From assembly GCA_013619105.1 (NCBI GenBank), contig JABXKU010000003.1, forward strand, positions 37,826-101,825: DNA of 64,000 bases, given 5' to 3'. Origin of the DNA: Desulfuromonadales bacterium (lineage in GTDB: Bacteria > Desulfobacterota > Desulfuromonadia > Desulfuromonadales > Syntrophotaleaceae). The notes beneath the pieces were generated by a model. It was not told the origin of the DNA, did not search any database, and was given only the letters and a program-made list of their open reading frames with translations. Made by a program: the position numbers and the translations under genes. Positions 26,556 through 50,321 of this stretch are shown here, piece by piece; positions within the stretch are counted from its first letter, which is position 1; the number at the start of each line of letters is the position of its first letter.

Positions 26556-27290
26556 TTGAATAAAGATGTTCGGCAAATTGCCTTGGTGACAGGGGCCAGC
26601 AAAGGGATCGGTGCTGCGATAGCGGTGGATCTGGCGCGTAATGGTTTTGATATCTGGCTAAACTTCCGCAGCGATTTGACGGCGGCAAATAAGGTTGCGG
26701 CTGAAATAGAGGCCCTTGGTAGCAAGTGTACGCTGGTTCCTTTTGATGTCGCGGATGGCGCAGCGGTGAGGTCTGCCCTTGAACCATTGCTGGTAGACCA
26801 GGTTCCCCACGTTCTGGTTAATAATGCCGGATTCACTCGGGATACCTTGATGATCTGGATGAAGGAGAGCGAGTGGAAGGATGTGCTTTCAGTTCATCTG
26901 GACGGATTTTTCAATGTAACCAAGACAATTCTTACCGGCATGATAAAAAAACGCTGTGGCCGTATAGTCAATATCGTCTCTACTTCGGGGCAGAGTGGAG
27001 TTGCAGGTCAGCTTAATTACTCTTCAGCCAAGGCGGGACTGATCGGGGCGACCAAATCTCTAGCTGCCGAAGTGGCTAAGCGCAAAATATTGGTCAACGC
27101 CGTTTCGCCCGGTTTTATTGAAACAGAAATGATTCAGGATTTGCCCAAAGATCGAATTTTGCCCATGATCCCACTTGGTCGGATTGGTCAACCAGAGGAG
27201 GTTGCCGGATTGGTTAGTTTTCTTTGTTCGGAGAAGGCCTCTTACATAACCGGGCAGGTGTTTTCAGTTAATGGTGGAGCTTACATGTAA
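26556..27290 (+). CDS. 3-oxoacyl-ACP reductase (FabG/ApeQ-like ketoreductase)
   Basis: TGASKGIG, NNAG, Ser/Tyr/Lys active site (STSGQSGVAGQLNYSSAK). Confidence 0.9.
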   Translation: MNKDVRQIALVTGASKGIGAAIAVDLARNGFDIWLNFRSDLTAANKVAAEIEALGSKCTLVPFDVADGAAVRSALEPLLVDQVPHVLVNNAGFTRDTLMIWMKESEWKDVLSVHLDGFFNVTKTILTGMIKKRCGRIVNIVSTSGQSGVAGQLNYSSAKAGLIGATKSLAAEVAKRKILVNAVSPGFIETEMIQDLPKDRILPMIPLGRIGQPEEVAGLVSFLCSEKASYITGQVFSVNGGAYM

Positions 27291-27370
27291 ATTCCACGGG
27301 GTGGAAGGATCTAACAGTTCATTCGCTGGCAACGGTCATTGCCGGCTTTTATTTTGATTTGAAGGGGATT

Positions 27371-28591
27371 ATGTACCGGGTTGCCATCACTGGGGTTGGA
27401 ATTGTTTCCTGTCTCGGCAGTGACGTAGAGTCTGTCGCCGAAGCACTACGCTTGGGCCAGTCAGGGATTGTGCTTGACGAGAATCGTCGCAAGCTTGGAT
27501 TTCGCAGCTCTTTGACCGGGATGGTCAAGGGCTTTGATGCCGCCTCGGTATTGTCGCGGAAGCAGCGCAAAACCATGCCGGATTTCGCTATCCAGGCTTA
27601 TACGGCTGCAAAGGATGCTATCGGAATGGCCGGGTTGGCACCCGAGCAGGTTAAGAACGATGAGACCGGCTTGATTTTCGGCTGCGACTCTAGCTGTATT
27701 GCTGCGATCGAACAGGTCGACTTGCTGAGAGAAAGGGGCGAAACTAAGCTCATTGGCAGCGGATTGGTTTTTCGCTCAATGACCAGCAGTGTCACGATGA
27801 ATCTTAACACCCTATTGCAAACTCAGGGCGCCTGCTGGACACTAAGTTCGGCCTGCTCCAGCGGAGGGCATGCGGTCGGTCAATCGGCGGATCTGATTGC
27901 CATGGGCCGGCAGGAACGTGTCATTTGCGGTGGTGCCCAAGAGGTTAACTGGGAGTCAATGTGCAGTTTTGATGCCCTGGGTGCTTTTTCTGTTGGTATG
28001 GATTCTCCGGCCACCGCCAGTCGGCCCTTCGATGCCGGTCGTGACGGCCTGGTTCCCAGTGGTGGGGCAGCCGCCCTGGTGTTGGAGCGCTACGACCTGG
28101 CAGAGGCTCGGGGAGCAACGATCTTGGGAGAGGTGCTTTCCTATGCATTTTCTTCTGATGGACAGCATCTCTCCGTTCCTAGCCGCGGCGGCCTTCAGCG
28201 GGCGATGGGCAAAGCGATCGATGGTGCTGGCCTGAAACCGGCCGATATTAATTACGTGTGCGCCCATGCCACCTCTACTCCTGCTGGAGACGCTGCAGAA
28301 GCGGATAATATTGCCGCTGTTTTTGGTTCCAGTCATCCCTGGGTTTCATCTGTTAAGTCGATGACCGGGCACGAACTTTGGATGTCAGGGGCCTCCCAGG
28401 TTGTCTATACGACCCTTATGGCCCAAAAGGGGTTTATTGCTCCTAATATCAATTTTGAAACCCCGGATGAAAATAGTCGTGGTTTGCGGATCGCCACGGA
28501 AGCCATTCAGCTCACTCCCGAACACGTGCTGTGCAATTCGGCTGGTTTCGGTGGGACCAATTCATGCCTGGTTCTGAGGTACGACCGATGA
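27371..28591 (+). CDS. Beta-ketoacyl-ACP synthase (FabB/F-like), KS 1 of the cluster
   Basis: LSSACSSGGHA active-site Cys; His at VCAHATSTPAGD and KSMTGHELWMSGASQ. Confidence 0.9.
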   Translation: MYRVAITGVGIVSCLGSDVESVAEALRLGQSGIVLDENRRKLGFRSSLTGMVKGFDAASVLSRKQRKTMPDFAIQAYTAAKDAIGMAGLAPEQVKNDETGLIFGCDSSCIAAIEQVDLLRERGETKLIGSGLVFRSMTSSVTMNLNTLLQTQGACWTLSSACSSGGHAVGQSADLIAMGRQERVICGGAQEVNWESMCSFDALGAFSVGMDSPATASRPFDAGRDGLVPSGGAAALVLERYDLAEARGATILGEVLSYAFSSDGQHLSVPSRGGLQRAMGKAIDGAGLKPADINYVCAHATSTPAGDAAEADNIAAVFGSSHPWVSSVKSMTGHELWMSGASQVVYTTLMAQKGFIAPNINFETPDENSRGLRIATEAIQLTPEHVLCNSAGFGGTNSCLVLRYDR

Positions 28592-30078
28592 TCTATGATC
28601 AGGTCGTTATCGGGTCCGGTATTTCGGGCTTGGTTGCAGCAACTATTTTAGCTCAATATGGTCACCGCGTTGCGTTGGTTGAACAGGCACCGGTTCTGGC
28701 CCCCGTGCTGCGAGGCTTCTCCCGCCAGGGTATTTACTATGACACCGGATTCCACTATTCCGGTGGTTTGGGGGATGGGGAAGTCCTCGATGTACTGTTC
28801 CGTTATCTCGGGATTGCCGAAAAAATTGAAAAGTACTCCTTTGCCGCGGATCGCTTCGATACCTTCCGTGATGTGGAGACTCAGGAAGAGTTTCACTTTC
28901 CTATCGGTCGCGAAGCATTACGGGATAGACTCAGTACAGCCTTTCCGCAGGAGCGGGAAGGTATTGACAAGTATCTGGCGATGGTCCGTGAGGCTTGTCA
29001 GGCAATCCCTTATCTGAATCTTGATCTTGAATTCGGTCAAGTTAAGTCCCCTCTTGGAGTTCATGGTCCCTCTCTGGGAGAGGTTCTCGATCAACTCATT
29101 GGCAATACCGCCCTTAAGGGGCTGTTGTCCATGCATTCTTTGCTCTATGGTGTTCCTCCTGATCAAGTTCCCTTCTTTCTCCATGCCAGTGTTGCTGGGC
29201 TCTATTATGAGTCGGTGCATGGTTTAAAAGGGGGAGGGCTGAGTCTTGTCCAAGCCTTTGAACAACGACTGGACGAGTTAGGTGTGGATGTTTTTCTTGG
29301 GCAGGCGGCTCAGAAGTTTAGTTTCGCTGCTAATGGCACTCTTGCCGGCGTGACCATGGCCGATGGGGAGGTTGTTGCCTGTCGTAACTGTGTCGCCACT
29401 GTCCATCCGCAGGTGGTGCTCGATTTGGTGCCATCTGAACTGCTGAGACCGGTTTATCGCCGTCGACTCGAAAACTTAGAAGAGACCGTTTCTGCCATAA
29501 TGCTCTATGCTGCCTGCGAGACTCCGAGTCCCTTGTTGCAAGGAAGCAATCTGTTTCTTGGCCGCCTAGGGCGACCGTTGGAGGGTTTGGGCTGTGGAGC
29601 GCTGGAGGAACGACCAATCTATATGGCCGGGACTGCACCGGATGATAAGGGGCCTGGGGCAAGGGGCTTTGTTGCTATCTGCCCAGCTGAGCAGGACTGC
29701 ACTTCCCGTTGGAGCGGTTCCTCCTTGGGCAAGCGACCAGCAGAATACCTGCGGTTCAAAGAAGAGACTATGGAGCGCATGCAGTGCCACATCGAACGAA
29801 GCTGTCCTGAATTGCGAGGCACCTTTAAGGTGTCCGCCGGTGCCACGCCACTGACCATACGTGACTTTTCCGCCAATCCCGCGGGAGGGCTCTACGGAGT
29901 AAAGCATAGGGTGGGGCAGTATAATCCCATGGCAAGAACCCGGGTGCCCGGCCTGTTTCTCGCTGGTCAGGCAGTGGTGGCCCCCGGTGTGCTCGGAGGC
30001 GCGCTGTCCGGATTTTTGACCTGTGGTCAGATGCTGGGGCAGGATCAGTTACTTGAAAGGGTGAAGGCATGCAGTTGA
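28588..30078 (+). CDS. FAD-dependent oxidoreductase, phytoene desaturase (CrtI)-like
   Basis: YDQVVIGSGISGLVAATILAQYGHRVALVEQ; GLYGVKHRVGQYNPMARTRVPGLFLAGQAVVAPGVLGG; ATGA overlap with the upstream KS. Confidence 0.8.
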   Translation: MIYDQVVIGSGISGLVAATILAQYGHRVALVEQAPVLAPVLRGFSRQGIYYDTGFHYSGGLGDGEVLDVLFRYLGIAEKIEKYSFAADRFDTFRDVETQEEFHFPIGREALRDRLSTAFPQEREGIDKYLAMVREACQAIPYLNLDLEFGQVKSPLGVHGPSLGEVLDQLIGNTALKGLLSMHSLLYGVPPDQVPFFLHASVAGLYYESVHGLKGGGLSLVQAFEQRLDELGVDVFLGQAAQKFSFAANGTLAGVTMADGEVVACRNCVATVHPQVVLDLVPSELLRPVYRRRLENLEETVSAIMLYAACETPSPLLQGSNLFLGRLGRPLEGLGCGALEERPIYMAGTAPDDKGPGARGFVAICPAEQDCTSRWSGSSLGKRPAEYLRFKEETMERMQCHIERSCPELRGTFKVSAGATPLTIRDFSANPAGGLYGVKHRVGQYNPMARTRVPGLFLAGQAVVAPGVLGGALSGFLTCGQMLGQDQLLERVKACS

Positions 30079-31304
30079 AGAGGGTTGTTATCACAGGTTG
30101 TGGGAGCGTCTCGCCCTATGGAAGAGGTGTTGACACGCTGATGGAAGGGCTTTTAGCTGGTCGCAGCGCTGTGCAGAATTTCCCCGACCTGGCGGCTATC
30201 GGTGGCCTTCGAACCAGGGTGGCTGCCAAAGTATCCGGCATTAATCCTAAAGAGATCCCGCGTAAGGATCGTCGTTCCATGTCCGCCATGTCGATCTTTG
30301 CCACTATGGCCAGTCAGGATGCTTTGGCTCAATCTGGAGTGACCACTGAACAGCTGACTAGTGGCCGTCTGGGGATCTCCCTTGGTTCCACGGTCGGTAG
30401 TACCAAGACAACCGAAGAACTCTTCCGAGACTTTTTTACCGATTCTAGTCTGGAGCGGATGAAGTCGACCATTTTTTTCCAGATCATGAATCACAGTTGC
30501 GCTTCCAATGTGGCGCAAGCATTGGGTATCAGCGGCCGTCTTTTGGCCCCGTCCGCGGCCTGCTCTACAGGCTGCCAGGCTATCGGTTACGGTTATGAGC
30601 TCATTGCCATGGGCAAGCAGGACATGATGCTCTGCGGTGGCGCTGACGAATTTCATCCGCTGACGGCGGCGACCTTCGATAATATCAATGCCGCGTCAGT
30701 CGGCTTTAATGACTCTCCTAGCTGTACGCCTAGGCCCTTCGATCGGGCCAGGGACGGTGTGGTCTGTGCCGAAGGGGCGGGGGTCGTATTGATCGAATCC
30801 CTCGATTCCGCCATTGAACGTGGCGTGCCTATCCTTGCTGAGATTGGCGGCTTCGCCACGCTTTCGGATCCGAGAAGTATTGCCAATCCCAATGTTGAGG
30901 CTATGGAGCGCTGCATGCGCCTGGCCCTGGAGGACGCCGACCTTGGTGCGGACGAAATTGATTACATCAATGCCCACGCCACGGCTACCGAGCAGGGGGA
31001 TATTGCCGAAAGCGAGGCCATCTCTCGAATTTTTGGGGAGCTGGTGCCTGTCAGCAGCTTAAAAGGTCATATGGGACACACTATGGCGGCCAGTGGTTCC
31101 CTCGAGCTGATCGCTTCTTTGGAAATGATGAGCCGGGGCAGGCTGGTGCCGACCCTCAATCTTGAGGAGGTGGATCCGGCTTGCAGCACCCTTAACTATT
31201 TGCGCTTGGTTCAAGCAACCGAGATCGACACTTTTGTCAAAAACAGTTTCGCCTTTGGGGGCGTTAATTCATCGATTGTGGTAAGGAGATTCACGCATGA
31301 CTGA
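30069..31304 (+). CDS. Beta-ketoacyl-ACP synthase, KS 2
   Basis: SAACSTGCQAIGYG; NAHATATEQGD; SSLKGHMGHTMAASG. Confidence 0.9.
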   Translation: MQLKRVVITGCGSVSPYGRGVDTLMEGLLAGRSAVQNFPDLAAIGGLRTRVAAKVSGINPKEIPRKDRRSMSAMSIFATMASQDALAQSGVTTEQLTSGRLGISLGSTVGSTKTTEELFRDFFTDSSLERMKSTIFFQIMNHSCASNVAQALGISGRLLAPSAACSTGCQAIGYGYELIAMGKQDMMLCGGADEFHPLTAATFDNINAASVGFNDSPSCTPRPFDRARDGVVCAEGAGVVLIESLDSAIERGVPILAEIGGFATLSDPRSIANPNVEAMERCMRLALEDADLGADEIDYINAHATATEQGDIAESEAISRIFGELVPVSSLKGHMGHTMAASGSLELIASLEMMSRGRLVPTLNLEEVDPACSTLNYLRLVQATEIDTFVKNSFAFGGVNSSIVVRRFTHD

Positions 31305-31557
31305 ACAGCAGATAATTGATTTGATTAATTCCTCGCTGGTAGAGGAGTTTGAACTCGATCCAGCGTCGATGAGTCCCGATGCTAATATCTATGAGGATTT
31401 GGGGCTCGACAGTCTTGATACGGTGGACATGGTGATCGTTCTGGAAGGGGCGTTCAAGTTCAAAATTCGCGAAGAGGAGGAGATCCGAGAGATCCGCACC
31501 CTCGGTGATATCTACCGCTTTGTAAATGGTAAAAGCCATCAGATTAAAAGGAAATGA
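31297..31557 (+). CDS. Acyl carrier protein, ACP 1
   Basis: DLGLDSLDTVDMVIVLE phosphopantetheine site; overlaps KS 2. Confidence 0.9.
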   Translation: MTEQQIIDLINSSLVEEFELDPASMSPDANIYEDLGLDSLDTVDMVIVLEGAFKFKIREEEEIREIRTLGDIYRFVNGKSHQIKRK

Positions 31558-31651: not shown

Positions 31652-32473
31652 ATGGCGGCAGTATCTGATGTTGTACAAGAAAAGTCTGGCGATAAGGTGA
31701 CCCGCTTTTTCGGGCCGTCTGTGGTGGTGATGAACCTTGTGGTTTATCCGCTACTGGCTCTCTGCACTGTGCTTGGAGTACTTCTTTTCCCCTTGGGCTT
31801 TGTGCTTTGGAAATTGGTCACCAATTGGGACAGTGGACGTATCATGCGCCACTTTATCTGGATATATGGGCAGGGATGCCTCTTTGTTATGAAGCCTTTT
31901 GTCAGGTTTCGTCGGGAGGGATTCCAGCATTTGACGTCCGGTGAACCCTGCCTGCTAGTGGTCAACCACCTCTCCTTTTTCGATACTTATTGTATGGCGT
32001 TGCTCCCAACCTACGATGTCACCTTTGCGGTGCGGGCCTGGCCTTTTCGCATGCCCTGGTACGGCTGGTTTATGCGGTTGGCCGGATACCAGGACGTTGA
32101 GAGTTTGGACTGGGAAGAAATCCTCAGCTCTGCCGCTGCCACCTTTAGTAAGGGTGGGCACCTCCTGTTTTTTCCTGAAGGACACCGTAGTCGCACTGGC
32201 GGTTTACAGCGTTTTTATAATGGGGCCTTTCGCTTGGCTGCAGAGTTAGATGTGCGTTTGGTTCCCTTGTGCCTCGATGGGACCAATAAGCTACTGCCCC
32301 CCAAGCGTCTTTGGTTTAGCCCTGCTGAAATTGTCATTAGGGCGTTGCCTCCGGTGGAAGGTACGCAATTTACCGGTATTGAGGGACCTCGCCAACTGCG
32401 TAAGCTGGTTAAGGGACAGATGACAGAGGCTCTGGCTCAGATGCGGGGGGAAGACCCTGAAGGACTTAAATAA
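31652..32473 (+). CDS. 1-acyl-glycerol-3-phosphate acyltransferase-like (PlsC family)
   Basis: NHLSFFDTYCMALL (NHX4D-like), FFPEGHRSRTGGLQRFYNGAFRLA. Confidence 0.85.
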   Translation: MAAVSDVVQEKSGDKVTRFFGPSVVVMNLVVYPLLALCTVLGVLLFPLGFVLWKLVTNWDSGRIMRHFIWIYGQGCLFVMKPFVRFRREGFQHLTSGEPCLLVVNHLSFFDTYCMALLPTYDVTFAVRAWPFRMPWYGWFMRLAGYQDVESLDWEEILSSAAATFSKGGHLLFFPEGHRSRTGGLQRFYNGAFRLAAELDVRLVPLCLDGTNKLLPPKRLWFSPAEIVIRALPPVEGTQFTGIEGPRQLRKLVKGQMTEALAQMRGEDPEGLK

Positions 32474-32588
32474 GTTTGGTGGTTTTGCAAAAAACAGATG
32501 AATGCATTTTTATTGTTATGGACTGTTTGTTGAGGGGATAGTTGGTCAAGCCTTTCAATGATGGGTTAAGAACTGATTAAGTATTTAT

Positions 32589-32618
32589 TCCCCGACTGAC
32601 CGTGCCGGGGAGTTTTTA
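32589..32618 (+). terminator. Candidate intrinsic terminator between the PlsC-like and ammonia-lyase genes
   Basis: TCCCCG-ACTGACCGTGC-CGGGGA-GTTTTTA. Confidence 0.6.
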
Positions 32619-32706
32619 TAATCGGGTTTCAATGCTAAAACCCCTTTGTTGCCAGTCAGTTTTTCGGAATGGAAACTAAATTAACGGAAATGAGAGTCAT
32701 AGCCTA

Positions 32707-34293
32707 ATGTCCCAACGCCCTACCGTAATATTGAATGGCAGTGAATTAACCATTGAGGATATCGTTGCTCTTGGAATTGGTACTCATCGGGTGGCCCTTG
32801 ACCCGGTCGCTTTAGAGCGTTGCCTCGCTAGTCGTCGTTTTCTGGAAGAAGAAGTCGCCGCCCACCGAATTATCTATGGAGTCAACACCTCTTTTGGCCC
32901 GATGTGTAACAAGATCATTGAGGACGCCGAAATCGAAGCGTTGCAAGTCAACTTGATTCGCAGCCATGCTGCTGGACTCGGCGATCCTTTAAAGCCCACA
33001 GTCGCTATTGCTGTGCTGGTGGTGCGGCTTAATTCCCTGGTCAAGGGATTTAGCGGGGTGCGCATCGAGCTTCTCGAATTCCTCCGTGACATGATCAATT
33101 TAGGTGTCGCCCCATTCATCCCTGAGTGTGGTAGCGTCGGCGCCTCGGGGGACCTGATCCATCTAGCCCATTTGGGCCTTGCGGTAATAGGCGAGGGAAA
33201 GGTCTATTATCGCGATGAGCTACGCCCGACCGAGGAGGTTTTTGCCGAACTCGGAATGGTGCCGAGGCGACTCAGTTTTAAGGAGGGCCTCGCCTTGATG
33301 AACGGTACCAGCGCTATGACTGCGCTGGCTGCCTTTGCACTGTACGGTGCCAAGCAGCTACTACGGCTTTCCTGTGTGACGGGGGCCTTTGCTCAGGAGA
33401 TCTTCGGCGGAATCGATGATTCCTTGGATGATGACCTGCATCAATTAAAGCCCCATCCCGGTCAGTTGCATATTGCCGACACTATCCGCCACCTTTATCA
33501 GGGCTCAACCAACATTGCCCTGCGTGAGAACACGCACGAGCTGATCCGAGGTCAACAGCAGGGTGGGCCAGTATTCGAAACCGACATCAAGGTACAGGAT
33601 TCATATTCTATACGTTGTATTCCGCAAGTCCTGGCGCCGGTTGCCGAAGCGGTTGAAATGGCGGTGCGAACCGTTGAAATCGAGGCTAATTCCTCCAACG
33701 ATAATCCTCTTATTATTCCGGATAAGAAGAAGATCATTCATGGCGGCAACTTTCATGGCCAGAGTATCGGTTTTGTTATGGATGCCCTGTGTATTGCTAT
33801 GTCCACCCTGTCGAATCTTTCCGAGCGGCGTCTTAATAAGTACCTGGATAAACACCAGAATGAAGGGTTGCCGGAACATTTGATCCCCGGTACGGCAGGT
33901 TTGACCATGGGATTTATGGGGGCTCAGTACCTCGCGACCTCCACCACTGCAGAGAATCGGCAGCTGGCGGGTCCGGTTAGCACCAATTCGATTTCTTGTA
34001 ACGCCTCCAATCAGGATGTGGTTAGCATGGGCACGGTTGCGGCACGCAAGGCCTGCAAGTCAGTGAGTAATGCCAAACATATTCTCACGCTGGAGGTTCT
34101 TGCCGACCTGCAGGCCCTATCGTTCCGCAATGCCGAGGGCCTCGGTCGCGGTACGGGAAAGATCCACAGGGAGCTCAATCAGCATTTTGAAATTTATGAT
34201 AACAGTCGCGTTTTTCATGATGATTTGGTGAAATTTCGCAAAATCCTTTTTTCCAGCCCGCTTCTCGACGACCTGTCAGTCTTCTGGCAGTAA
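32707..34293 (+). CDS. Aromatic amino acid ammonia-lyase (HAL/TAL/PAL family, MIO)
   Basis: GSVGASGDLIHLAHLGL (MIO ASG triad), GVNTSFGP, QVNLIRSHAAGLGDPL, SSNDNPLI. Confidence 0.93.
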   Translation: MSQRPTVILNGSELTIEDIVALGIGTHRVALDPVALERCLASRRFLEEEVAAHRIIYGVNTSFGPMCNKIIEDAEIEALQVNLIRSHAAGLGDPLKPTVAIAVLVVRLNSLVKGFSGVRIELLEFLRDMINLGVAPFIPECGSVGASGDLIHLAHLGLAVIGEGKVYYRDELRPTEEVFAELGMVPRRLSFKEGLALMNGTSAMTALAAFALYGAKQLLRLSCVTGAFAQEIFGGIDDSLDDDLHQLKPHPGQLHIADTIRHLYQGSTNIALRENTHELIRGQQQGGPVFETDIKVQDSYSIRCIPQVLAPVAEAVEMAVRTVEIEANSSNDNPLIIPDKKKIIHGGNFHGQSIGFVMDALCIAMSTLSNLSERRLNKYLDKHQNEGLPEHLIPGTAGLTMGFMGAQYLATSTTAENRQLAGPVSTNSISCNASNQDVVSMGTVAARKACKSVSNAKHILTLEVLADLQALSFRNAEGLGRGTGKIHRELNQHFEIYDNSRVFHDDLVKFRKILFSSPLLDDLSVFWQ

Positions 34294-34317: not shown

Positions 34318-34776
34318 ATGTCGAACGAATTCAAACTGCCAATGGCGGCCGAGGGCCTGATCCCACATCGCCTTCCCATGCGCCAGATTGATCGTCTTGT
34401 CGAATATCACGAGGGTGAAGAGGCTACGGTCGAAGCTGTAATCGATGCGGCAAATCCCCTGCTGGATGGGGATGGACAACTGGCCGAGGTCGCCTTGGTG
34501 GAAATGTTGGCCCAGGCTTTTGCTGCTGTTCAGGGTTATGCGGACCGCATGGCCGGAAAGCCCGTAGGGCAGGGTTTTTTGGTTGGCATAAGTAAAGTGG
34601 AAATTGAAGGGACTGCCCGTGTGGGGGATTGCTTGTCTATCCGTATTCGCCCCATCGCAACCGTGGATAGGTTTGTGGTGGTTGAAGGTGAGGTCTTGCT
34701 GGGGCAACAAGTATTGGCCGCCGGCAAGCTCAAACTCTGGATCCCGCAGGTTGAAGTAACACCGGAGCAGGCATGA
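34318..34776 (+). CDS. 3-hydroxyacyl-ACP dehydratase-like hot-dog protein (ApeP-like)
   Basis: LIPHRLPMRQIDRLVEYHEGEEATVEAVIDAANPLLDGDGQLAEVALVEMLAQAFAA. Confidence 0.75.
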   Translation: MSNEFKLPMAAEGLIPHRLPMRQIDRLVEYHEGEEATVEAVIDAANPLLDGDGQLAEVALVEMLAQAFAAVQGYADRMAGKPVGQGFLVGISKVEIEGTARVGDCLSIRIRPIATVDRFVVVEGEVLLGQQVLAAGKLKLWIPQVEVTPEQA

Positions 34777-35405
34777 AAGGGCTTTTGAAAACTCTAGGCA
34801 TCTTTGTTTTCTTTGCTCAGCTGTGGTTGCCTGTGGGGGCGTGGGCTGGGGTTTCAGGGCAGGATGCTAAGGTTCTGGAGCGGCTCGAAGAGCTTTCAGC
34901 CGGAATCGAAACCATCGCTAGTGATTTTACTCAAGAAAAATACTTGGCTGTGTTTCAGGAGGCCATGCTTTCTTCCGGACGTTTCTATTTTAAATCCCCT
35001 GGCTCATTGCGTTGGGAATTGACCCAGCCCGTTGTTACCGGGTTCGTATTAAAAGGCAACGAAGGACACCGTTGGCATCAGCGCACCGGTCGAAGTGAAA
35101 GCTTTGATATCGATCGTGAGCCGGTGATGAAGATCGTTGCCGAACAATTACTCGCCTGTGCCGGTGCCGATTTTGATTGGTTGCGCCAGAAGTATAAGAT
35201 TGTCGTAGAGGCGCAAGCTCCGGTGCGTCTTAGGCTCGATCCTCTTTTCGAAACTGCTGGGTTTCTCAATTATCTAAATATTCAATTTTCTTCCGGTGGT
35301 CGTTATGTGCAGATGGTGGAAGTACATGAGGCCGACGGCGACTATACCCGGCTCCGGTTTGAGAATGTGGTTATCAACCAGCCCTTGGCAGAGGAACTTT
35401 TTTAG
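34773..35405 (+). CDS. LolA-like outer membrane lipoprotein carrier
   Basis: Signal peptide; SAGIETIASDFTQEKYLAVFQEAMLSSGRFYFKSPGSLRWELTQPV. Confidence 0.88.
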   Translation: MKGLLKTLGIFVFFAQLWLPVGAWAGVSGQDAKVLERLEELSAGIETIASDFTQEKYLAVFQEAMLSSGRFYFKSPGSLRWELTQPVVTGFVLKGNEGHRWHQRTGRSESFDIDREPVMKIVAEQLLACAGADFDWLRQKYKIVVEAQAPVRLRLDPLFETAGFLNYLNIQFSSGGRYVQMVEVHEADGDYTRLRFENVVINQPLAEELF

Positions 35406-39292: not shown

Positions 39293-39301
39293 TTTTCATC
39301 C

Positions 39302-39420
39302 GGAAACGGCACTTTTCCCCAATCCCGGCGTCAATCCGCACGCTTGCTTGTACGGCGTAAACAGCTACGCCTCCGCGCAAGCGCTTGGTTTCCTTGGCCT
39401 TGGGAAAAATTACTCGTTTC
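39302..39420. repeat. Fold-back (REP/MITE-like) intergenic element
   Basis: Outer arms GGAAACGGCACTTTTCCCCAA / TTGGGAAAAATTACTCGTTTCC; inner nested arms CGCTTGC/GCAAGCG and GGCGTA/TACGCC. Confidence 0.65.
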
Positions 39421-39615
39421 CCATATGAAAACTGCTTAGTGCCTATCTGAAGTTTCGGGTGGGACACTAAGTGTAGCTCATTTCAGTTGACGCAATTTAG
39501 TGTTGCCTCCGATCTTGGCAGCGATAGTCGAATATTTTGAATAGGCATAGGCCTTTTGACGGTTGTGAGGATTAATGCTCCCCCCGTGATGGCCTGTACA
39601 TGTGGAGAAATTGCA

Positions 39616-42239: not shown

Positions 42240-42249
42240 AGAGGATTCA

Positions 42250-43734
42250 ATGGCGGTGTTGAATGCAAAGACAGTACTGCTGGTTCACCCCCTTGGCTAC
42301 CAGGCCGATGCGGCTGGGCGAGATATTTCACGTCTGGCTAATATTATGCCGCCGCTGGGGTTGGCCAGTATCGCTGCCTATTTGGAGAGACTTGGGGTCG
42401 AGGTCCATATCGTCGACTGTTACGCCCATCCTCAAAGTGATCGGGTAATCCTAGATCTGCTGCGGTCTGAACGACCGGCCATGATCGGCTTCAGTTGTAC
42501 CACCTCCAGTTTTCTCGATGGAGTTCGTCTGGCGACCATGGCTCGGCAAGAGTTTCCTAGTATCCGCACCGTTTTTGGCGGCCCCCACGTCTCTGCTCTC
42601 AAGGAAACAATCCTACGTGATTTTCCCGTAGTCGATTACATTGTGGCCGGGGAAGGGGAGGAGACGTTTCATGAGCTGGTAATGGCTGAAGGGGAGGGAT
42701 GCGGTTCTATTCCGGGGCTGGTTTATCATGAGCCTGATGGTGAGATTGTTTTTTCCGGCTATCGGGAAACTGGGATTGTACTCGACTCCCTGCCTTTTCC
42801 GGCTTATGAGAAGTTGGCAGGGTATCCCGATGCCTATCGGTTGCCGATTTTTAACTATCCGAGGGTGCCGAATAGCAGCTGTATTTCTAGCCGAGGCTGC
42901 CCTTACAGCTGCAGCTATTGCGATCGGTCGGTGTTCCGAAGCAGCTTTCGCTATAACTCAGCCGAATATCTCTACGCCCATCTGCGTTATCTGAAAGAGC
43001 GTTTTGGTATCCGCCATGTCAATTTTTACGACGACCAGTTCACTTTTAACCGTGACCGGGTGGAGTCCTTTTGCCGTTTGATGTCAGATAAGCCCCTCGG
43101 GATGACCTTTAACTGCGCAGTGAGGGCCGAGCATATCGACCCAGACCTTTTGCAGCAAATGAAGGGGGCAGGGTGTTGGATGGCGAGCTTGGGAATAGAG
43201 ACCGGAGACCCGGAATTGCTGGCTCAGCATCGTCAGAACGCCGATCTTGAAATGCTTTCAGCAAAGCTGCGCATGATCAAGGGAGCCGGTATTCGAACCA
43301 AGGGCCTGCTGATGATGGGACTGCCCGGTGAAAGCGAAGCGAGCATTAGGCGCAGCATGGAATACGTCTTTTCTCTGCCCATAGACGATTTTAACTTGGC
43401 CAAGTTCACTCCCTTTCCCGGGGCACCTTTGTACGAAACGATCCGTGACAAGGGGGTGTTTGAAGAGGATTGGGCCAAGATGGACTGCATGCACTTTCAG
43501 TTTATTCCCAAGGGGATGAACCGCGAGCAGTTGGAAAAGCTCTTCACCGAGTTTTACAAGAAACACTTTATGCGGCCCCAAGTTCTGCTGGGTTATCTGG
43601 CCATGTTATGGCGTTCCCCTGATAGTTGGCGGCGCTTCGTTCTTAATCTCGGAGACTTTCTCCGTTTTGCCCGGGGCAGCCGGCGCATTGCCGACCCTGA
43701 GGGTCAAGACGAGGCTCGGTCTGATTGCCGTTAA
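42250..43734 (+). CDS. B12-binding domain radical SAM protein 3
   Basis: SSRGCPYSCSYCDRSVF; N-terminal MPPLGLASIAAYLERLGVEVHIVDCYAH...TVFGGPHVSAL...IVAGEGEET. Confidence 0.92.
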   Translation: MAVLNAKTVLLVHPLGYQADAAGRDISRLANIMPPLGLASIAAYLERLGVEVHIVDCYAHPQSDRVILDLLRSERPAMIGFSCTTSSFLDGVRLATMARQEFPSIRTVFGGPHVSALKETILRDFPVVDYIVAGEGEETFHELVMAEGEGCGSIPGLVYHEPDGEIVFSGYRETGIVLDSLPFPAYEKLAGYPDAYRLPIFNYPRVPNSSCISSRGCPYSCSYCDRSVFRSSFRYNSAEYLYAHLRYLKERFGIRHVNFYDDQFTFNRDRVESFCRLMSDKPLGMTFNCAVRAEHIDPDLLQQMKGAGCWMASLGIETGDPELLAQHRQNADLEMLSAKLRMIKGAGIRTKGLLMMGLPGESEASIRRSMEYVFSLPIDDFNLAKFTPFPGAPLYETIRDKGVFEEDWAKMDCMHFQFIPKGMNREQLEKLFTEFYKKHFMRPQVLLGYLAMLWRSPDSWRRFVLNLGDFLRFARGSRRIADPEGQDEARSDCR

Positions 43735-43780
43735 TAAAACGGCTGGTCTCCACTTTTTAAATGTTAATTTGGTTTTCTAG

Positions 43781-44950
43781 ATGACTTTTGATATTGATAA
43801 AACTCTCATTGTGATCCCTCTCTACAACCATGCGGCGACGGTGCGGGAGGTTGCCCAACGTGCCTTAGCGATACACGACAGGGTGCTGGTGGTGGATGAC
43901 GGCAGCAGCGATGGCGGGGCAGAGACCCTGCAGGGGCTCGGGGTGCAGGTGCTGCGCGAAGAAACCAATAAGGGCAAAGGATCAGCGATCATGATTGCCG
44001 CCCGGGAGGCGGCTCGGATGGGGATGACCCACTTGGTCACTATCGATGCCGATGGTCAACATGATCCTGCCGATATGCAGCAGATTTTTAAGATACTTAA
44101 GGAAGAGCCCTGCTCCATCGTGGTAGGGAAAAGGGATTTCGATACTTCTAATGTTCCTGGGTCGAGTCGCTTCGGGCGCAAGTTTTCAAACTTTTGGTTA
44201 AGACTACAGACCGGACGCAGTCTGCAAGACACGCAGAGCGGATTCAGGGCCTACCCGGTGGCGGTCCTAGAGGGGCTGAAGCTGAAGGAAACTCGCTATT
44301 CTTTCGAGATAGAGGTTCTGGTCAAGGCGGCCTGGGCCGGGGTTTCGCTGCGGGATGCTGATATATCCGTCTATTATCCCCCAGCGGAAAAGCGGGTGTC
44401 CCACTTTGACAAAGTCAAAGACAACCTGCGGCTTACTTTACTCAACACTCATTTGACTTTGAGATCAGTTCTGCCCTGGCCTCACCGTAAAATTGTACCT
44501 AAACAAAAGGGCCCTAAGGTTAGTTTGTTCCGCCCAATGGAATCGATCCGCTGCCTGCTTACGGAAAACACTTCTCCGGGCCAGTTGGCAGCGGCAGGAG
44601 CGTTAGGGGTACTCCTCGGAGCAGCACCATTAATCGCCTGCCATACCATCGTGGTCCTTTTCGCTGCTGGTTTTTTCAGACTTAACAAGGTGGTGGCAAT
44701 TAGCACAAGTCAGCTTTGTATGCCGCCGTTTGTGCCTGCACTCTGTATCGAGGCCGGTTACTATATGCGTCATGGCGAGTTTTTGACTGAGGTGTCCTGG
44801 CAAACCATTGGCCACCAGGGGTTCGAGAGGCTCTACGAGTGGTTTATAGGCTCTTTGGTGGTCGGTCCTCTTCTGGGTGCGGCGGTAGGTGGAGGTATTT
44901 ACGCGACAGCCATGCTTGTGAAGAGAGAAAAGGTTGTTGCCGATGGATAG
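43781..44950 (+). CDS. Family 2 glycosyltransferase with C-terminal DUF2062
   Basis: IVIPLYNHAATVREV, VVDDGSSDG, TIDADGQHDPADM; C-terminal GALGVLLGAAPLIACHTIVVLFAAGFFRLNKVVAIS... Confidence 0.87.
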   Translation: MTFDIDKTLIVIPLYNHAATVREVAQRALAIHDRVLVVDDGSSDGGAETLQGLGVQVLREETNKGKGSAIMIAAREAARMGMTHLVTIDADGQHDPADMQQIFKILKEEPCSIVVGKRDFDTSNVPGSSRFGRKFSNFWLRLQTGRSLQDTQSGFRAYPVAVLEGLKLKETRYSFEIEVLVKAAWAGVSLRDADISVYYPPAEKRVSHFDKVKDNLRLTLLNTHLTLRSVLPWPHRKIVPKQKGPKVSLFRPMESIRCLLTENTSPGQLAAAGALGVLLGAAPLIACHTIVVLFAAGFFRLNKVVAISTSQLCMPPFVPALCIEAGYYMRHGEFLTEVSWQTIGHQGFERLYEWFIGSLVVGPLLGAAVGGGIYATAMLVKREKVVADG

Positions 44951-45866
44951 CGAAAAGAAGGGGAGGCAATGGAGCAGCAAGAGCGTCGGTACGGCCTGGC
45001 AGCACCGGTTTTTTTATCTTCTTATTCGTTTAGGAGGGCGGTGGGCTGCCTATCTGGTGCTCTATTTCATCATCTTTTACTACATGTTGCTGCGTCCGGA
45101 TCAAAGGAAAAAATCTGAATATTATCTCCGTCGTCGTTTTCCCGACAGCGGGCCTGTAAGACGCTGGTGGCAGAGTTACCGGATGAGCTTGGAGCTTGGT
45201 AAGGTGCTGATTGACCGAGCGGCGGTGGGGATTTTAGGGCCGGAGGTCCTGAGCGTAACCTTGCAGGGGCGGGAGGAGTTGCTCGAATTGGTCGGGGAAG
45301 GTCGTGGACTGATTCTTATGATGTCTCACGTCGGCTGTTGGCAGGTGGCGATGGCCGCCTTACGCTGCCTAGAAACGCCGGTGAATCTGCTGATTCAGCA
45401 AGAAGAGGGGGATGTCGACCGACACTTCTTTGAGCACTCAGGTACTGGTTCACCCTTTCATATTATCGATCCCCGCGGGTATCTCGGCGGAACCCTTGAG
45501 ATGATGGGAGCGCTGAAAAAGGGTGAAGTTCTATCGGTCATGGGGGATCGTATGCTAGGGAGTGACCGGAGTTCGGTTCCCGTCCGGTTTCTTGGCGATG
45601 AGATGCAGGTTAACTTCAGCTCCTACAAAATAGCGTCGGCCACCGGTGCGCCGATTGCAGTGCTTTTTAGCCGGAAGACCGGTCCGTCGAGTTACGAGCT
45701 ACAGGTTTCCGGGGTGATCAGGGTTCCTGCTGATCTAGGTCGGTCAAAAGAGGCCTATCTGCCCTATGCTCAATTATTCGCTCGATTGCTAGAAGAATAT
45801 ACGGTAAAAAACCCATTTCAGTTTTTCAACTTCTACGATATGTGGAATAACGATGGTGAAGGGTGA
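44943..45866 (+). CDS. LpxL/HtrB-like lysophospholipid acyltransferase
   Basis: FYLLIRLGGRWAAYLVLYFIIFYYMLLRPDQRKKSEYYLRRRFPD; MMSHVGCWQVA; VMGDRMLGSDRSSVPVRFLG. Confidence 0.85.
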   Translation: MDSEKKGRQWSSKSVGTAWQHRFFYLLIRLGGRWAAYLVLYFIIFYYMLLRPDQRKKSEYYLRRRFPDSGPVRRWWQSYRMSLELGKVLIDRAAVGILGPEVLSVTLQGREELLELVGEGRGLILMMSHVGCWQVAMAALRCLETPVNLLIQQEEGDVDRHFFEHSGTGSPFHIIDPRGYLGGTLEMMGALKKGEVLSVMGDRMLGSDRSSVPVRFLGDEMQVNFSSYKIASATGAPIAVLFSRKTGPSSYELQVSGVIRVPADLGRSKEAYLPYAQLFARLLEEYTVKNPFQFFNFYDMWNNDGEG

Positions 45867-45910
45867 GGTCGGTTTTAAGGCCCCCTATTTTAGTGAAGGA
45901 GTTACGAGAG

Positions 45911-46165
45911 ATGGCGATCAAAGAAAAACTCAAGAAGATACTGGTGGAAGAACTGAACCTGGAAGATATGACAGCGGAGGAAATCGAGGACAGCACCCCT
46001 TTGTTCGGTGAAGGGCTGGGGCTCGATTCACTCGATGCGGTTGAGCTTGTCGTCTTAATCCAGAAGCATTTCGGTATTGAAATACAGGACATGGAAGAGG
46101 GTCGAGAGGCTTTCGAGTCGGTCGAAACCCTAGCTGGGTTCATCGACGAGCGATTGAAGGGATGA
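45911..46165 (+). CDS. Acyl carrier protein, ACP 2
   Basis: LGLDSLDAVELVVLIQKHFGIEIQDMEEGREAFESVETLAGFI. Confidence 0.92.
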   Translation: MAIKEKLKKILVEELNLEDMTAEEIEDSTPLFGEGLGLDSLDAVELVVLIQKHFGIEIQDMEEGREAFESVETLAGFIDERLKG

Positions 46166-47364
46166 GCGGGCCGTCTCCTGTAGCCGTTACCGGAGTCGGT
46201 TGCCTATGCGCTGCCGGTGCTAACCTGGCGGCTTGTATGGAGAGTTTGTTTAAAGAAAGGCGGCATCCTGCACCTCCGTCTCGCTTTGAAACGGAACACG
46301 CCATTAGGTATCCGGTCTTTGAAGTTTCCGAGGGGTTTTTCCCACCGGAGCTTCCTGAAGACGGCCAATTGCTGAGGACTTCCCGTCTGGCACTGGCTGC
46401 TACCCTAGAAGCCCTCCATGATGCCGATTGGAACCCTGAGGATCTTAAGGGGCTGCGGGTCGGGGTCTGTATTGGAACCACGGTCGGCAGCGCGATGAAC
46501 AGTGAGGAATTCTACCGTGATTATCGCAGTGGGAAGCGACCGGAGATGACCCCGATAGAGCGCTTTTTGCGTAGTAACCCTGCCGCCTCGGTAGCCCGTT
46601 ATTTTGGACTTTCTGGACCGGTGCAGACGGTGGTCAATGCCTGTTCATCCGGGACCGATGCTCTGGGGCTTGCCGCTTCGTGGGTTCGTAACGGTCTGTG
46701 CGATGTGGCTCTGGCCGGTGGCGCCGACGAGCTTACCCGGGTTACCTACAATGGGTTCGCCTCTTTGATGATAGCCGACGCTGAGCCAGTCAGGCCCTTT
46801 GATTTGAGTCGGCGCGGTCTCAACCTCGGGGAAGGGGCTGGAATGTTGGTTCTCGAATCGGAAAAAATTCAGCAGGTGCGAAAAGCGAAAATACGCTCCC
46901 ATCTTTTGGGGTATGGCTCGGCTTGCGATGCGTATCACTTGACCGCTCCAAGCCCCGATGGTTCAGGGTTGATACGGGCCTTGGATGAGGCCATGCAATC
47001 TTCAGGTTGCCGATCGGAGGATATCGCCTTTGTTAACGCCCACGGTACAGGAACCCCTGACAACGACCGGGTGGAGAGCACGGTGCTCGGCAAGGTGCTT
47101 CCTCGCACGCCTTTTTTGTCGACTAAGGGTTTTACGGGCCACACCCTGGGAGCCGCAGGGGCGCTTGAGGCAGCCTTCACCATCGCTTGTCTGGAGGCAG
47201 GGCGTATTCCCGCCAGTGCCGGTTTCAGCAAACCGGATCCTGTATTTCCCATCCATCCTGTTACCCGAGAGGTGGCCATTGAAGGGCGAGCGGCTCTTTC
47301 CCAGTCTCTAGCGTTTGGTGGGAACAATGCTGTCGTGATTTTTGGAAAGGAAGGTCCGCAATGA
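46162..47364 (+). CDS. Beta-ketoacyl-ACP synthase, KS 3 (ApeO-like)
   Basis: VNACSSGTDALGLAASW; NAHGTGTPDNDRVE; STKGFTGHTLGAAG. Confidence 0.9.
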   Translation: MSGPSPVAVTGVGCLCAAGANLAACMESLFKERRHPAPPSRFETEHAIRYPVFEVSEGFFPPELPEDGQLLRTSRLALAATLEALHDADWNPEDLKGLRVGVCIGTTVGSAMNSEEFYRDYRSGKRPEMTPIERFLRSNPAASVARYFGLSGPVQTVVNACSSGTDALGLAASWVRNGLCDVALAGGADELTRVTYNGFASLMIADAEPVRPFDLSRRGLNLGEGAGMLVLESEKIQQVRKAKIRSHLLGYGSACDAYHLTAPSPDGSGLIRALDEAMQSSGCRSEDIAFVNAHGTGTPDNDRVESTVLGKVLPRTPFLSTKGFTGHTLGAAGALEAAFTIACLEAGRIPASAGFSKPDPVFPIHPVTREVAIEGRAALSQSLAFGGNNAVVIFGKEGPQ

Positions 47365-48458
47365 CCAGGCTTTCAATTCGAGGGGTTGGGGTCGTGGGCG
47401 GTTTTGGCTGTGGTTTAGAGGCCTTTGACAGAGCCCTGGTTTCCGGGGTCGCCTCGACCATGCAAGTGACGCCTGTTCCTGGTAACGAAAGCGTGTTGCG
47501 GTCAGCGTTTCTTGCCGATACTGCCCCTCTAGAAGAGTTCCTAAACAAACGAGCTTTGCGACGTATCGATCACTTCTCCCGGTTAGCTCTGCTTGGTAGT
47601 CATCTGGCTTTGCAAGATGCGGGAATGCTCGGAGCCATTCCAGAGCGGGTGGGCCTTGTGATTGCTAGTGGTTATGGAGCACTGCGTACCACTTTTTCCT
47701 TTCTTGATTCGATCATAGAGGATGGAGACTCTTGCGCTTCTCCCACTCATTTCTCCAATTCAGTACACAATGCCGCTGCTGCTCATGTGGCCATTAAATT
47801 GAATATTGGTGGTCCTAACCTCACAGTTAGCCAGTTTGAGATGTCGGTCTCTTCGGCACTATTAACCGCCCAGCTTTGGCTTGAGGAAGGGCGCGTCGAT
47901 CATGTCGTTTTTGGTGGGGTGGATGAGTACAGCGCCGTTCTTGGCTACTGCTGGGAGCGGTTTCTGGGAAGTGAGTCAACTGAGGAAATGGCGCCTTTTG
48001 ACCTCGCTCGGCAGACGGCGCTGGTTGGGGAGGGATCGGCCTTTTTCGTGTTGTCCCGAGAGGAGACCGCATCCCCGTACGGAGCCATTGATAGGGTGAG
48101 CCTTGGCCATCTCTCTGGAGGCCTTCCCATTCTGCCGAAGGACCCAGTTTATATTCTGGGAGCGGACGGCCATCGCCAGTGCAGCGCCAAATATCCAGAA
48201 TTAGTGCCCCAAGGGGCTTCGGTTGCGAGCTATGCTCCCCTGTACGGTAGCTTGCCTGTCGGGCAGGCCTTTGACTTGGCTGCCGCCGCTCTGGCGATGC
48301 GCGATGGGCGCCTTTGTGCCACGCCGGGTCACGTTGCCGAGGAGACCGACTGGCAAATTGTTGGTACCGAGGAGCTAGGCCAGCGAGATATTTGTTGTCT
48401 CAAAATGGATGACAATGGCGGTTATGGTTTTCTGACGGTAACCAAGGGGCGGGGATGA
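47361..48458 (+). CDS. KS-like protein lacking catalytic residues (chain-length-factor/ApeC-like)
   Basis: Region aligned to NACSSGTDAL reads QFEMSVSSALL (Cys to Glu); the NAHGTGT and GHTLGAAG His motifs are absent; still KS-like GGVDEYSAVL; ATGA-coupled to KS 3. Confidence 0.8.
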   Translation: MTRLSIRGVGVVGGFGCGLEAFDRALVSGVASTMQVTPVPGNESVLRSAFLADTAPLEEFLNKRALRRIDHFSRLALLGSHLALQDAGMLGAIPERVGLVIASGYGALRTTFSFLDSIIEDGDSCASPTHFSNSVHNAAAAHVAIKLNIGGPNLTVSQFEMSVSSALLTAQLWLEEGRVDHVVFGGVDEYSAVLGYCWERFLGSESTEEMAPFDLARQTALVGEGSAFFVLSREETASPYGAIDRVSLGHLSGGLPILPKDPVYILGADGHRQCSAKYPELVPQGASVASYAPLYGSLPVGQAFDLAAAALAMRDGRLCATPGHVAEETDWQIVGTEELGQRDICCLKMDDNGGYGFLTVTKGRG

Positions 48459-49024
48459 TGAACCAAGTTGGGAGGACAATTCTTCTCTGCTTGATTCTGA
48501 TGTCTGTAGGTCCCTGTTTGGCTATGGCGGATGACGGGAATGTCGCCACCCGCTACTCCCTTGGCAGCAGCTTTGGCATAACGTACGATCCAGGCGCAGA
48601 TGTCGATTTCATGCTTTTATCTGCTGCTGCACTGTATGACTACGAGGCTATCTGGCACCATCGGGCGCCCGATCCGCTACGCTTCAAAGTGGAAGGGCAT
48701 GTCGGTTCCACCACCGGAACGCACATGCGTACCGTGGCATCGGCTAATATTCTGGCCCTATATTTTTTAGACCATTTTACTTCTGCTCACCTGCGCCCCT
48801 ATGTGGAAGCAGGGATCGGTATCATCTACACCGACTTTAAGGTAGAAGGGCAAGGATTGCGGGTTAACTTTAACCCTCAGGCCGGGGTCGGGATGGAGAT
48901 TGATTTGGGCGATGGCGCCCCGTGGTTTTCTGCCTTGAGGTTGCATCATGTGTCCAATGGTGGTCTTCACCATGATAACCGGGGCATTAATTCTGTGGTT
49001 TTGCAGGTCGGACGATTATTTTAG
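48455..49024 (+). CDS. PagL-like outer-membrane lipid A 3-O-deacylase homologue
   Basis: Signal peptide, small beta-barrel pattern, RLHHVSNGGLHHDNRGINS (HxSN motif), C-terminal aromatic (LQVGRLF). Confidence 0.75.
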   Translation: MMNQVGRTILLCLILMSVGPCLAMADDGNVATRYSLGSSFGITYDPGADVDFMLLSAAALYDYEAIWHHRAPDPLRFKVEGHVGSTTGTHMRTVASANILALYFLDHFTSAHLRPYVEAGIGIIYTDFKVEGQGLRVNFNPQAGVGMEIDLGDGAPWFSALRLHHVSNGGLHHDNRGINSVVLQVGRLF

Positions 49025-49145
49025 ATCGGCCCATTTATTGTAAAACCTTTTACTTTTAAGCTGAGTGTAAGAACGTTATCGTTTTGGTTGGCAGCAGGGT
49101 CTGTCCTGCAGCGATAATTTTTAGGAAGGTCGTTAAGGCAAGGCA

Positions 49146-50321
49146 ATGAATCACGTATCTTTATCTGTTATTGATTTTCAAGAAATGCTGTCCAGCCTAC
49201 TACTGGGGGCAATGTCTTATCCGCAGCGTTTACGCTTAGCGGCTGGTGGTTCTCTGCCGGCCTCGATAAAGATCGATGCAAAAATATTCCCAGATTTAAC
49301 AAACATAGTTCAGCGAGCCTGTCGCATGTTTGGCGTGGAAGAGGATACGGTTTCCGTTGTGGGAAAAACATTGGAGGAATGGGCTGAGGAAATACATCGG
49401 TTGTGGAGCAAGCCCCCCTTGGCTTTAACTTTTTTCACATCGGGTAGTACTGGTGAACCGGTTCCTGCAACCCAGGAATTCTCTTTTCATGTTCAAGAGA
49501 TTCTTGCATTGGCTGAGATTTTCAAGGGTCGTAACAGGATCGTAAGCTTTGTTCCACGCCATCACATCTATGGATTCCTTTTTTCTGTTCTCTTGCCTAA
49601 AGCACTTGGTTGCCCCGTATTGTGGATGCCCATTATGCCGATGCGCAGTTTAATTGCCGGCCTACAAGGCGGCGATCTTGTCATCGCATTTCCTCTTTTA
49701 TGGGGCAAACTAGCCGAGTTAAATGCTGAATTCCCAGCCGATGTATGGGGGGCTACCTCCACGGGACCTTGCCGGCCAGAAATAATCACCGCGCTCAAGA
49801 AAGCTGGACTCTCTGGCATGACAGAGGTCTATGGATCTTCGGAAACTGGTGGTGTGGGTTATCGTAATGCTACCGAAGCCCCCTATGAGCTTCTGCCCTA
49901 CTGGGAAAGAGTCGCCAACGAGTCACGGTTGTTGCGCCAACATCCCGTTGATGGTTCTCGTGCAGACTATGCATTGCAAGATGATTTGTCCTGGAAAGGA
50001 AACACACAATTTCTACCAAAGGGAAGAATTGACAAAGCGGTGCAGGTCGCAGGAGTAAATGTCTATCCAACTAAGGTAAGAAAAATCATGCTGTCACATC
50101 CATGCGTTGCTGATTGTGTTGTTCGATTGATGCGCCCAGAAGAAGGTTCCAGGCTCAAAGCTTTGGTGGTGTTAAAGACGGTGGGGGCAGACGTAAAGGC
50201 CTCAGAGAAAGATCTTAACTCGTTTCTTGACCAGAAACTCAATCACTACGAAAGACCGGCCAAACTGTCTTTATGCGATCAAATCCCAACGAATCATTTA
50301 GGCAAAGCTCAGGATTGGTAA
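49146..50321 (+). CDS. AMP-dependent acyl/aryl ligase (ANL superfamily, short form)
   Basis: TFFTSGSTGEPVPATQ, STGPCRPE, EVYGSSETGGVGYRN, C-terminal KGRIDKAVQVAGVNVYPTKVRKI. Confidence 0.85.
   Translation: MNHVSLSVIDFQEMLSSLLLGAMSYPQRLRLAAGGSLPASIKIDAKIFPDLTNIVQRACRMFGVEEDTVSVVGKTLEEWAEEIHRLWSKPPLALTFFTSGSTGEPVPATQEFSFHVQEILALAEIFKGRNRIVSFVPRHHIYGFLFSVLLPKALGCPVLWMPIMPMRSLIAGLQGGDLVIAFPLLWGKLAELNAEFPADVWGATSTGPCRPEIITALKKAGLSGMTEVYGSSETGGVGYRNATEAPYELLPYWERVANESRLLRQHPVDGSRADYALQDDLSWKGNTQFLPKGRIDKAVQVAGVNVYPTKVRKIMLSHPCVADCVVRLMRPEEGSRLKALVVLKTVGADVKASEKDLNSFLDQKLNHYERPAKLSLCDQIPTNHLGKAQDW

Follow-up and report, generated by a model that had tools for sequence, protein, structure and literature searches.

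The 64,000-nucleotide window analysed here comes from contig JABXKU010000003.1 (positions 37,826 to 101,825; assembly GCA_013619105.1) of a Desulfuromonadales bacterium of the family Syntrophotaleaceae. It carries a cluster of 24 genes, all on the + strand, that probably makes an aryl-polyene lipid of the flexirubin/aryl polyene (APE) type with a type II polyketide synthase (PKS)/fatty acid synthase (FAS)-like system and exports it to the outer membrane. The best reading is that this lipid is primed with coumarate or cinnamate, because 15 of the 18 genes of the Escherichia coli APE cluster have a counterpart in the locus and because its aromatic amino-acid ammonia-lyase, the only such enzyme in the genome, shows the residue pattern of the flexirubin enzyme FlxA. 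The aryl-polyene character that a preliminary description of the locus had proposed is therefore well supported, and the product is most likely an outer-membrane pigment lipid derived from tyrosine.

Gene content and conservation of the cluster

All the genes named in that description, which had placed them on one strand between positions 26556 and 50321, were found, and Pfam and NCBIfam profiles confirm nearly all of the assignments. The cluster extends one gene further upstream (25877-26497), to a gene that encodes a signal peptide and whose homologues, 46-57% identical, lie directly 5′ of the ketoreductase (KR) gene in three relatives. It is a conserved first gene and part of the cluster, although the profile search returned no Pfam or NCBIfam match for it. 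The many ATGA overlaps that had been noted correspond to 4-base overlaps (ATGA or GTGA) at nine junctions; four more junctions overlap by 8-17 bases, and the start of the FAD gene was corrected to the ATG at 28588, within an overlap. The G+C content of the cluster (52.5%) does not differ from that of the flanks (51.1% and 51.7%), and the source genome amounts to 3.32 Mb in 205 contigs. The features are as follows (ACP, acyl carrier protein; KS, ketosynthase; DH, dehydratase; SAM, S-adenosylmethionine; FAD, flavin adenine dinucleotide; AMP, adenosine monophosphate; CoA, coenzyme A; GT2, family 2 glycosyltransferase; AF2, AlphaFold2; G and L numbers are our handles for genomes and loci):

25877..26497, +, secreted protein, conserved first gene (homologues 5′ of KR in G025, G032 and G047)
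26556..27290, +, 3-ketoacyl-ACP reductase, ApeQ/FlxB-like (FlxB NF053542 307.5 bits, cut-off 340; 46% to ApeQ and to FabG)
27359..28591, +, ketosynthase KS1, FabB-like, triad intact (profile, similarity, residues)
28588..30078, +, FAD enzyme with carotenoid desaturase (CrtI/CrtD) fold (PF01593; CrtD/CrtI models 79/55 bits; AF2 model)
30069..31304, +, ketosynthase KS2, ApeR-like, triad intact (43.5% to ApeR vs 35% to FabB)
31297..31557, +, acyl carrier protein 1 (ACP1), ApeF-like (43% to ApeF; GLDSL)
31652..32473, +, acyltransferase, ApeD-like (PF01553; ApeD E=6e-11)
32474..32706, no strand, empty slot, held in most relatives by a FlxY-like, PaaK-family ligase (comparison with relatives' loci; 233-base gap)
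32707..34293, +, aromatic amino-acid ammonia-lyase with FlxA-like signature, predicted tyrosine/phenylalanine lyase (PF00221; motif 2 Gln)
34318..34776, +, FabZ-like dehydratase DH1, ApeP-like (NCBIfam; similarity to ApeP)
34773..35405, +, LolA-like periplasmic carrier, flexirubin LolA2-like (PF03548; NF053544 92 bits, cut-off 125)
35412..37784, +, MMPL/RND exporter, ApeM-like (PF03176; ApeM E=1.5e-9)
37781..38455, +, DUF3261 LolB-like lipoprotein, ApeN family (PF11659 25.6 bits, cut-off 22.3)
38448..38834, +, second hot-dog dehydratase DH2, ApeI-like (ApeI E=4e-6)
38831..39292, +, thioesterase, ApeK-like (4HBT_2; 34% to ApeK)
39293..39555, no strand, empty slot, held in nearly all relatives by a second KS-chain-length factor (CLF) pair (comparison with relatives' loci; 263-base gap)
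39556..40881, +, radical-SAM protein rS1, without curated family (56-97% identity across phyla; AF2 fold of AprD4/TsrM type)
40878..42239, +, B12-binding radical-SAM protein rS2, TIGR04072 rSAM_ladder_B12 (692 bits, cut-off 360)
42250..43734, +, B12-binding radical-SAM protein rS3, HpnJ/BchE-like (176/173 bits, below cut-offs)
43781..44950, +, GT2-DUF2062 glycosyltransferase, N-terminal half of ApeJ (profile and similarity)
44934..45866, +, LpxL-type acyltransferase, C-terminal half of ApeJ (PF03279; ApeJ E=4e-16)
45863..46165, +, acyl carrier protein 2 (ACP2), ApeE-like (45% to ApeE)
46162..47364, +, ketosynthase KS3, ApeO-like, triad intact (family profile: ApeO 274, FabF 266)
47361..48458, +, chain-length factor (inactive KS) in the ApeC role (without Cys/His/His; family profile detects ApeC, E=2e-7)
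48455..49024, +, PagL-like outer-membrane deacylase (PF09411 72.9 bits; HxSN present)
49146..50321, +, AMP ligase, 4-coumarate-CoA-ligase-like, probable replacement of the FlxY-like ligase (TIGR02372 259 bits, cut-off 335; 26% to ApeH)

As the reference for the APE comparison we used the cluster apeA-R of E. coli CFT073 (NC_004431), with gene roles taken from published work (PMC8253772; PMC8358021). Counterparts were found for ApeC, D, E, F, H, I, J (split in two), K, L, M, N, O, P, Q and R, and none among the cluster genes for ApeA, the SAM methyltransferase ApeB or ApeG. The APE features present comprise an ApeO-ApeC-related KS-CLF pair, an ApeR-related KS, two ACPs, a KR, two DHs, a thioesterase, an LPLAT-type acyltransferase, the glycosyltransferase/acyltransferase pair and an AMP ligase; together with a Lol-type export set, the KS-CLF pair, the ApeR-like KS, both ACPs and both DHs are common to the two systems. 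The differences are that E. coli starts from 4-hydroxybenzoate rather than from an ammonia-lyase-derived acid, that ApeJ is a fused protein there, and that the locus lacks ApeB and has four extra redox/radical enzymes. Three intact ketosynthases and a dead one had been described, and the residues bear this out: KS1, KS2 and KS3 retain Cys-His-Lys-His, whereas the fourth, the CLF, has no catalytic residue, its Cys being aligned to Glu and its His to Val, with the C-terminal part missing. The family profile of KS3 favours ApeO over FabF by a small margin only, and that of the CLF detects ApeC. Both ACPs carry GLDSL, and LolA, MMPL and DUF3261 all score above their Pfam cut-offs. The two hot-dog dehydratases gave no Pfam match in the profile search; NCBIfam places the first near FabZ (38 bits), and both show similarity to E. 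coli ApeP and ApeI.

The gene order is shared by ten genomes from seven families of the order, with few local losses: first gene, KR, KS1, FAD enzyme, KS2, ACP1, LPLAT, FlxY, lyase, DH1, LolA, MMPL, DUF3261, DH2, thioesterase, KS4, CLF4, rS1, rS2, rS3, GT2, LpxL, ACP2, KS3, CLF and PagL. A BtrH-like protein and an ABC pair often come next. Because synteny is conserved across so many genomes, a chance grouping is excluded, and the locus is a real, intact and conserved cluster. In the genus of the window both the FlxY-like ligase and the KS4-CLF4 pair have been lost, the latter being missing also in a congener (L053/L033), and within the genus the cluster is patchy, with rS2 in three of five genomes. 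In relatives KS4 has intact catalytic residues (49 of 49) and CLF4 is half-length. We considered this pair as the true ApeO-ApeC and rejected it, as the KS4 profile favours FabF and that of CLF4 misses ApeC. More widely, rS2 scores above its cut-off in 22 of 58 related genomes, and a scan of 84,980 genomes found 578 relatives, close and distant together; the top 80 (41-92% identity) belong to Desulfuromonadales, Desulfobacteria, Nitrospirota, Omnitrophota, Lentisphaerae, Hydrogenedentes, Planctomycetota and others.

Some variants and neighbours were also recorded. The 20 kb examined in G017 and G026 (L035, L048) holds the second half of the cluster only, from rS1 onwards, so that in these genomes the first half must be absent or sit at another place. 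Versions from Nitrospirota and Omnitrophota (L104-L122; f3FAD/f4Cond/f10AMP) are enlarged by a second FAD oxidoreductase, a further AMP ligase and a condensation-like acyltransferase; in several of them a gene resembling a polysaccharide deacetylase lies between ACP2 and KS3. In the window an alpha/beta hydrolase gene (50604-51518, -) adjoins the cluster, and similar hydrolases lie near the cluster end in L034, L090 and L123.

The starter module and the proposed route

FlxA of the flexirubin pathway is an assayed tyrosine ammonia-lyase in which motif 1 looks histidine-lyase-like and motif 2 has Gln instead of Glu, and its partner FlxY has been shown to be a 4-coumarate-CoA ligase (PMC3992019). 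The lyase of the window has an intact ASG motif of the 4-methylideneimidazole-5-one (MIO) type and matches the FlxA combination, as do the lyases of related clusters: motif 1 is SH in all 17 in which it is readable, and motif 2 has Gln (NQDVVSMG) in 18 of 18, the published Glu/Gln position having been equated with NQD/QED by our own alignment. Four paralogues located outside such clusters in relatives have Glu at motif 2. The lyase is the single copy of its family in the genome, which has no hut-type lyase, and on these grounds, together with motif 2, we rejected an identity as histidine ammonia-lyase.

In seven loci of relatives the gene immediately 5′ of the lyase encodes a FlxY-like ligase (448-463 bits with the NCBIfam FlxY model, cut-off 520). 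This ligase is missing from the window and its congener, and in the genome of the window as a whole the best match reaches 225 bits, as against 422-463 for FlxY-like ligases. The 4-coumarate-ligase-like gene at the 3′ end of the cluster has apparently replaced it non-orthologously in this genus, and such a replacement supports an aryl-acid substrate. The slot beside the FlxY-like ligase is taken by either of two genes: the gene after the ligase is the lyase in seven loci and a SPASM radical-SAM gene in nine. Counting all loci, which are related to each other so that the counts are not independent, 18 have the lyase only, 17 the SPASM gene only and none both, and mapped on the rS2 tree the swap amounts to three or more changes. 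Since the two alternate in one slot and never co-occur, it is simplest to suppose that each of them provides the starter acid. The window cluster has no SPASM radical-SAM gene of the anammox/Desulfobulbaceae type. In L058, L070, L074, L077 and L078 the slot is without lyase, FlxY-like ligase or SPASM protein, yet rS3 is present.

With the flexirubin cluster of Chitinophaga pinensis (flxA-flxY; PMC3992019) the locus shares the lyase motif pattern, a coumarate-type ligase, a FlxB-like KR, several KSs, two DHs, LolA, an LPLAT, a glycosyltransferase and an exporter; unlike that cluster it has radical-SAM and PagL genes. The dialkylresorcinol genes (darA/darB) of flexirubin clusters were not recognised among the cluster genes, to which the search was confined.

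Whereas gene content, residues, synteny and the slot swap were directly observed, every chemical step of the route proposed here is inferred. The lyase would deaminate tyrosine (or phenylalanine) to coumarate or cinnamate, which the 4-coumarate-ligase-like enzyme would activate for loading on an ACP. KS3 and the CLF, aided by KS2 and KS1, would extend the chain with malonyl units, and KR and the two hot-dog dehydratases would set the conjugated double bonds. The thioesterase, the two acyltransferases and the GT2 enzyme are predicted to release the chain and attach it to a lipid head, and MMPL, LolA and DUF3261 to transport the product to the outer membrane; there the PagL-like enzyme may trim an acyl ester. 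Modification of the ring or the chain without O2 could fall to the CrtI-like enzyme and the three radical-SAM proteins.

The radical-SAM enzymes and the ladderane label

All three radical-SAM proteins carry CX3CX2C. They had been described as B12-binding, which stood for rS2 and rS3; for rS1 the radical-SAM assignment holds, and its match to the B12 domain is below the Pfam cut-off (28.2 vs 32.1 bits). The predicted fold of rS1 (AF2 and Foldseek; pLDDT 87.6) is of the AprD4/TsrM type. As AprD4 is a dehydratase and TsrM a methylase, this fold names no reaction. Despite having no curated family, rS1 keeps 56-97% identity across phyla, and of 395 genomes sampled from the phylum about 53 have a match above 500 bits. 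rS2 stands beside KS and ACP genes; in the papers searched we found no literature on TIGR04072 by name. rS3 is nearest to HpnJ and BchE and occurs in 16 of 18 lyase loci and in 0 of 17 SPASM loci; our guess from this co-occurrence is that its probable target is the aryl part. For rS1 and rS2, which are common to lyase-free clusters, the chain or lipid is the more probable target. The best folds in the PDB for the AF2 model of the FAD protein (pLDDT 79.9, thin alignment) are 4rep and 4dgk, the carotenoid desaturase fold. Tailoring independent of O2 by these enzymes is plausible; the absence of O2-dependent enzymes is not diagnostic, because APE chains need no O2.

This set of radical-SAM and CrtI-like genes had been called unusual, a view that finds no support: rS2 belongs to a curated family, and the cluster type, known since 2009 (PMC2649909), is widespread. 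Clusters with these genes were then described in Kuenenia, Desulfotalea, Geobacter and Pelobacter, those of the first three as ladderane candidates (Rattray et al. 2009, PMC2649909), and later surveys label such clusters ladderane in many phyla while stating that their function is unknown (PMC9902471). The cluster falls in this described family, not in one with a known product. It has in common with the 2009 clusters rSAM_ladder_B12, divergent and inactive KSs, a CrtI-like enzyme, a glycosyltransferase and a membrane exporter, with order-level synteny to the Geobacter and Geothermobacter loci. It differs in having the tyrosine-lyase and rS3 in place of SPASM, in the type of its ligase, and in its single KS-CLF pair where those clusters have two.

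Three TIGR04072 loci from hydrazine-synthase-positive genomes (G150, G230, G320) match the description of kuste3335-3352 in order and content. They hold KS, CLF, KS, a FlxY-like ligase (422-452 bits), a SPASM radical-SAM gene, rS2, KR, ACP, MMPL, a CrtI-like gene and GT2. Shared with the family of the window are KS, CLF, rS2, KR, ACP, MMPL, the FAD enzyme, GT2 and LPLAT, and the FlxY-like ligase, which is present in the relatives of the window and not in the window itself. The SPASM enzyme occupies the slot held by the lyase in the window, and rS1, rS3, LolA, DUF3261 and the thioesterase were not found in these loci. By its gene content the anammox locus is therefore itself flexirubin/APE-like. 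We found no paper that states this, and those examined that name both ladderane and flexirubin mention the two without connecting the gene clusters.

In two further readings the polyene is cyclised. It is unlikely that rS1 and rS2 cyclise a tyrosine-aryl-primed polyene to an aryl-capped alicyclic, possibly cyclobutane-containing, membrane lipid, with an anammox sister compound built on a SPASM-derived starter. Unlikely, too, is a ladderane or ladderane-like lipid, in which rS2 and the CrtI-like enzyme would fuse a polyene into cyclobutane rings. The score of rS2 above the TIGR04072 cut-off and the content shared with the anammox locus, proposed for ladderanes in 2009, speak for it. Nevertheless, the window lacks the SPASM enzyme, the identity of its rS2 to the anammox copies is only 33-36%, and no ladderanes were found in D. 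psychrophila, which has a syntenic cluster (PMC2649909). Furthermore, of 10 hydrazine-synthase-positive genomes only 3 have an above-cut-off rS2 together with the ligase, SPASM protein and CLF of the locus, and the single-contig genomes G184, G279 and G310 have none of them, only a rS2 paralogue of ~325 bits in another context. As ladderanes are considered general in anammox bacteria, a locus so distributed is a poor candidate for the ladderane core. These comparisons suggest that the ladderane label of the family is misleading. The lone, below-cut-off TIGR04072-like protein of the cluster-less anammox genomes (L166 7661-10204, L168 7693-10425, L167 7931-10482) adjoins a protein that is by eye type III PKS/KAS III-like, a possible separate lead to an anammox lipid.

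Points against the aryl-polyene reading and its significance

On a par with the ladderane proposal in its low probability is the anaerobic polyunsaturated fatty acid/hydrocarbon pathway discussed by Rattray et al., in which the cluster would desaturate ordinary fatty acids. Polyunsaturated hydrocarbons were found in D. psychrophila, with its similar cluster (PMC2649909), and the FAD enzyme has a desaturase fold, but a dedicated lyase with the FlxA signature and an aryl-acid-type ligase would be senseless for a fatty-acid starter, and KS-CLF, two ACPs, two DHs and Lol-type export form the APE set.

Returning to the aryl-polyene lipid, some observations do weigh against it. The curated flexirubin models all score below their cut-offs (lyase 458 of 700, KR 307.5 of 340, LolA 92 of 125), and as FlxY is also absent, the cluster is not strictly a flexirubin cluster. 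The likeness of LolA and DUF3261 to the APE proteins is at family level only; direct BLAST of the cluster proteins to ApeL and ApeN was not significant. In six loci (five distinct genomes) the slot holds no lyase and no FlxY-like ligase although the other genes of the cluster are there, so the family can do without an aryl starter. Lastly, the nearest solved relatives of the lyase are tyrosine aminomutase and AdmH (319 and 315 bits), which speaks for an aminomutase and a beta-aryl-beta-amino acid starter leading to an amide- or amine-headed polyene. This reading is improbable, as the true lyase FlxA shares the motif pattern (PMC3992019) and in relatives the gene stands next to a FlxY-like ligase of the coumarate type.

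It is because of this gene family that ladderane clusters have been reported for many bacteria outside the anammox group. New in our analysis are the flexirubin/APE-type gene content of these clusters, the matching anammox locus included; the alternation of tyrosine-lyase and SPASM gene in one slot; the restricted occurrence of the anammox version, which argues against a ladderane role; and the losses in the genus of the window. This suggests that these clusters, with the anammox locus among them, serve to make polyene lipids of the flexirubin/APE kind and that their starter modules are exchangeable. If this is true, the search for ladderane genes would be redirected and a common annotation corrected, and culturable anaerobes such as Geothermobacter hydrogeniphilus and Desulforhopalus vacuolatus would become test hosts for two highly conserved radical-SAM enzymes.

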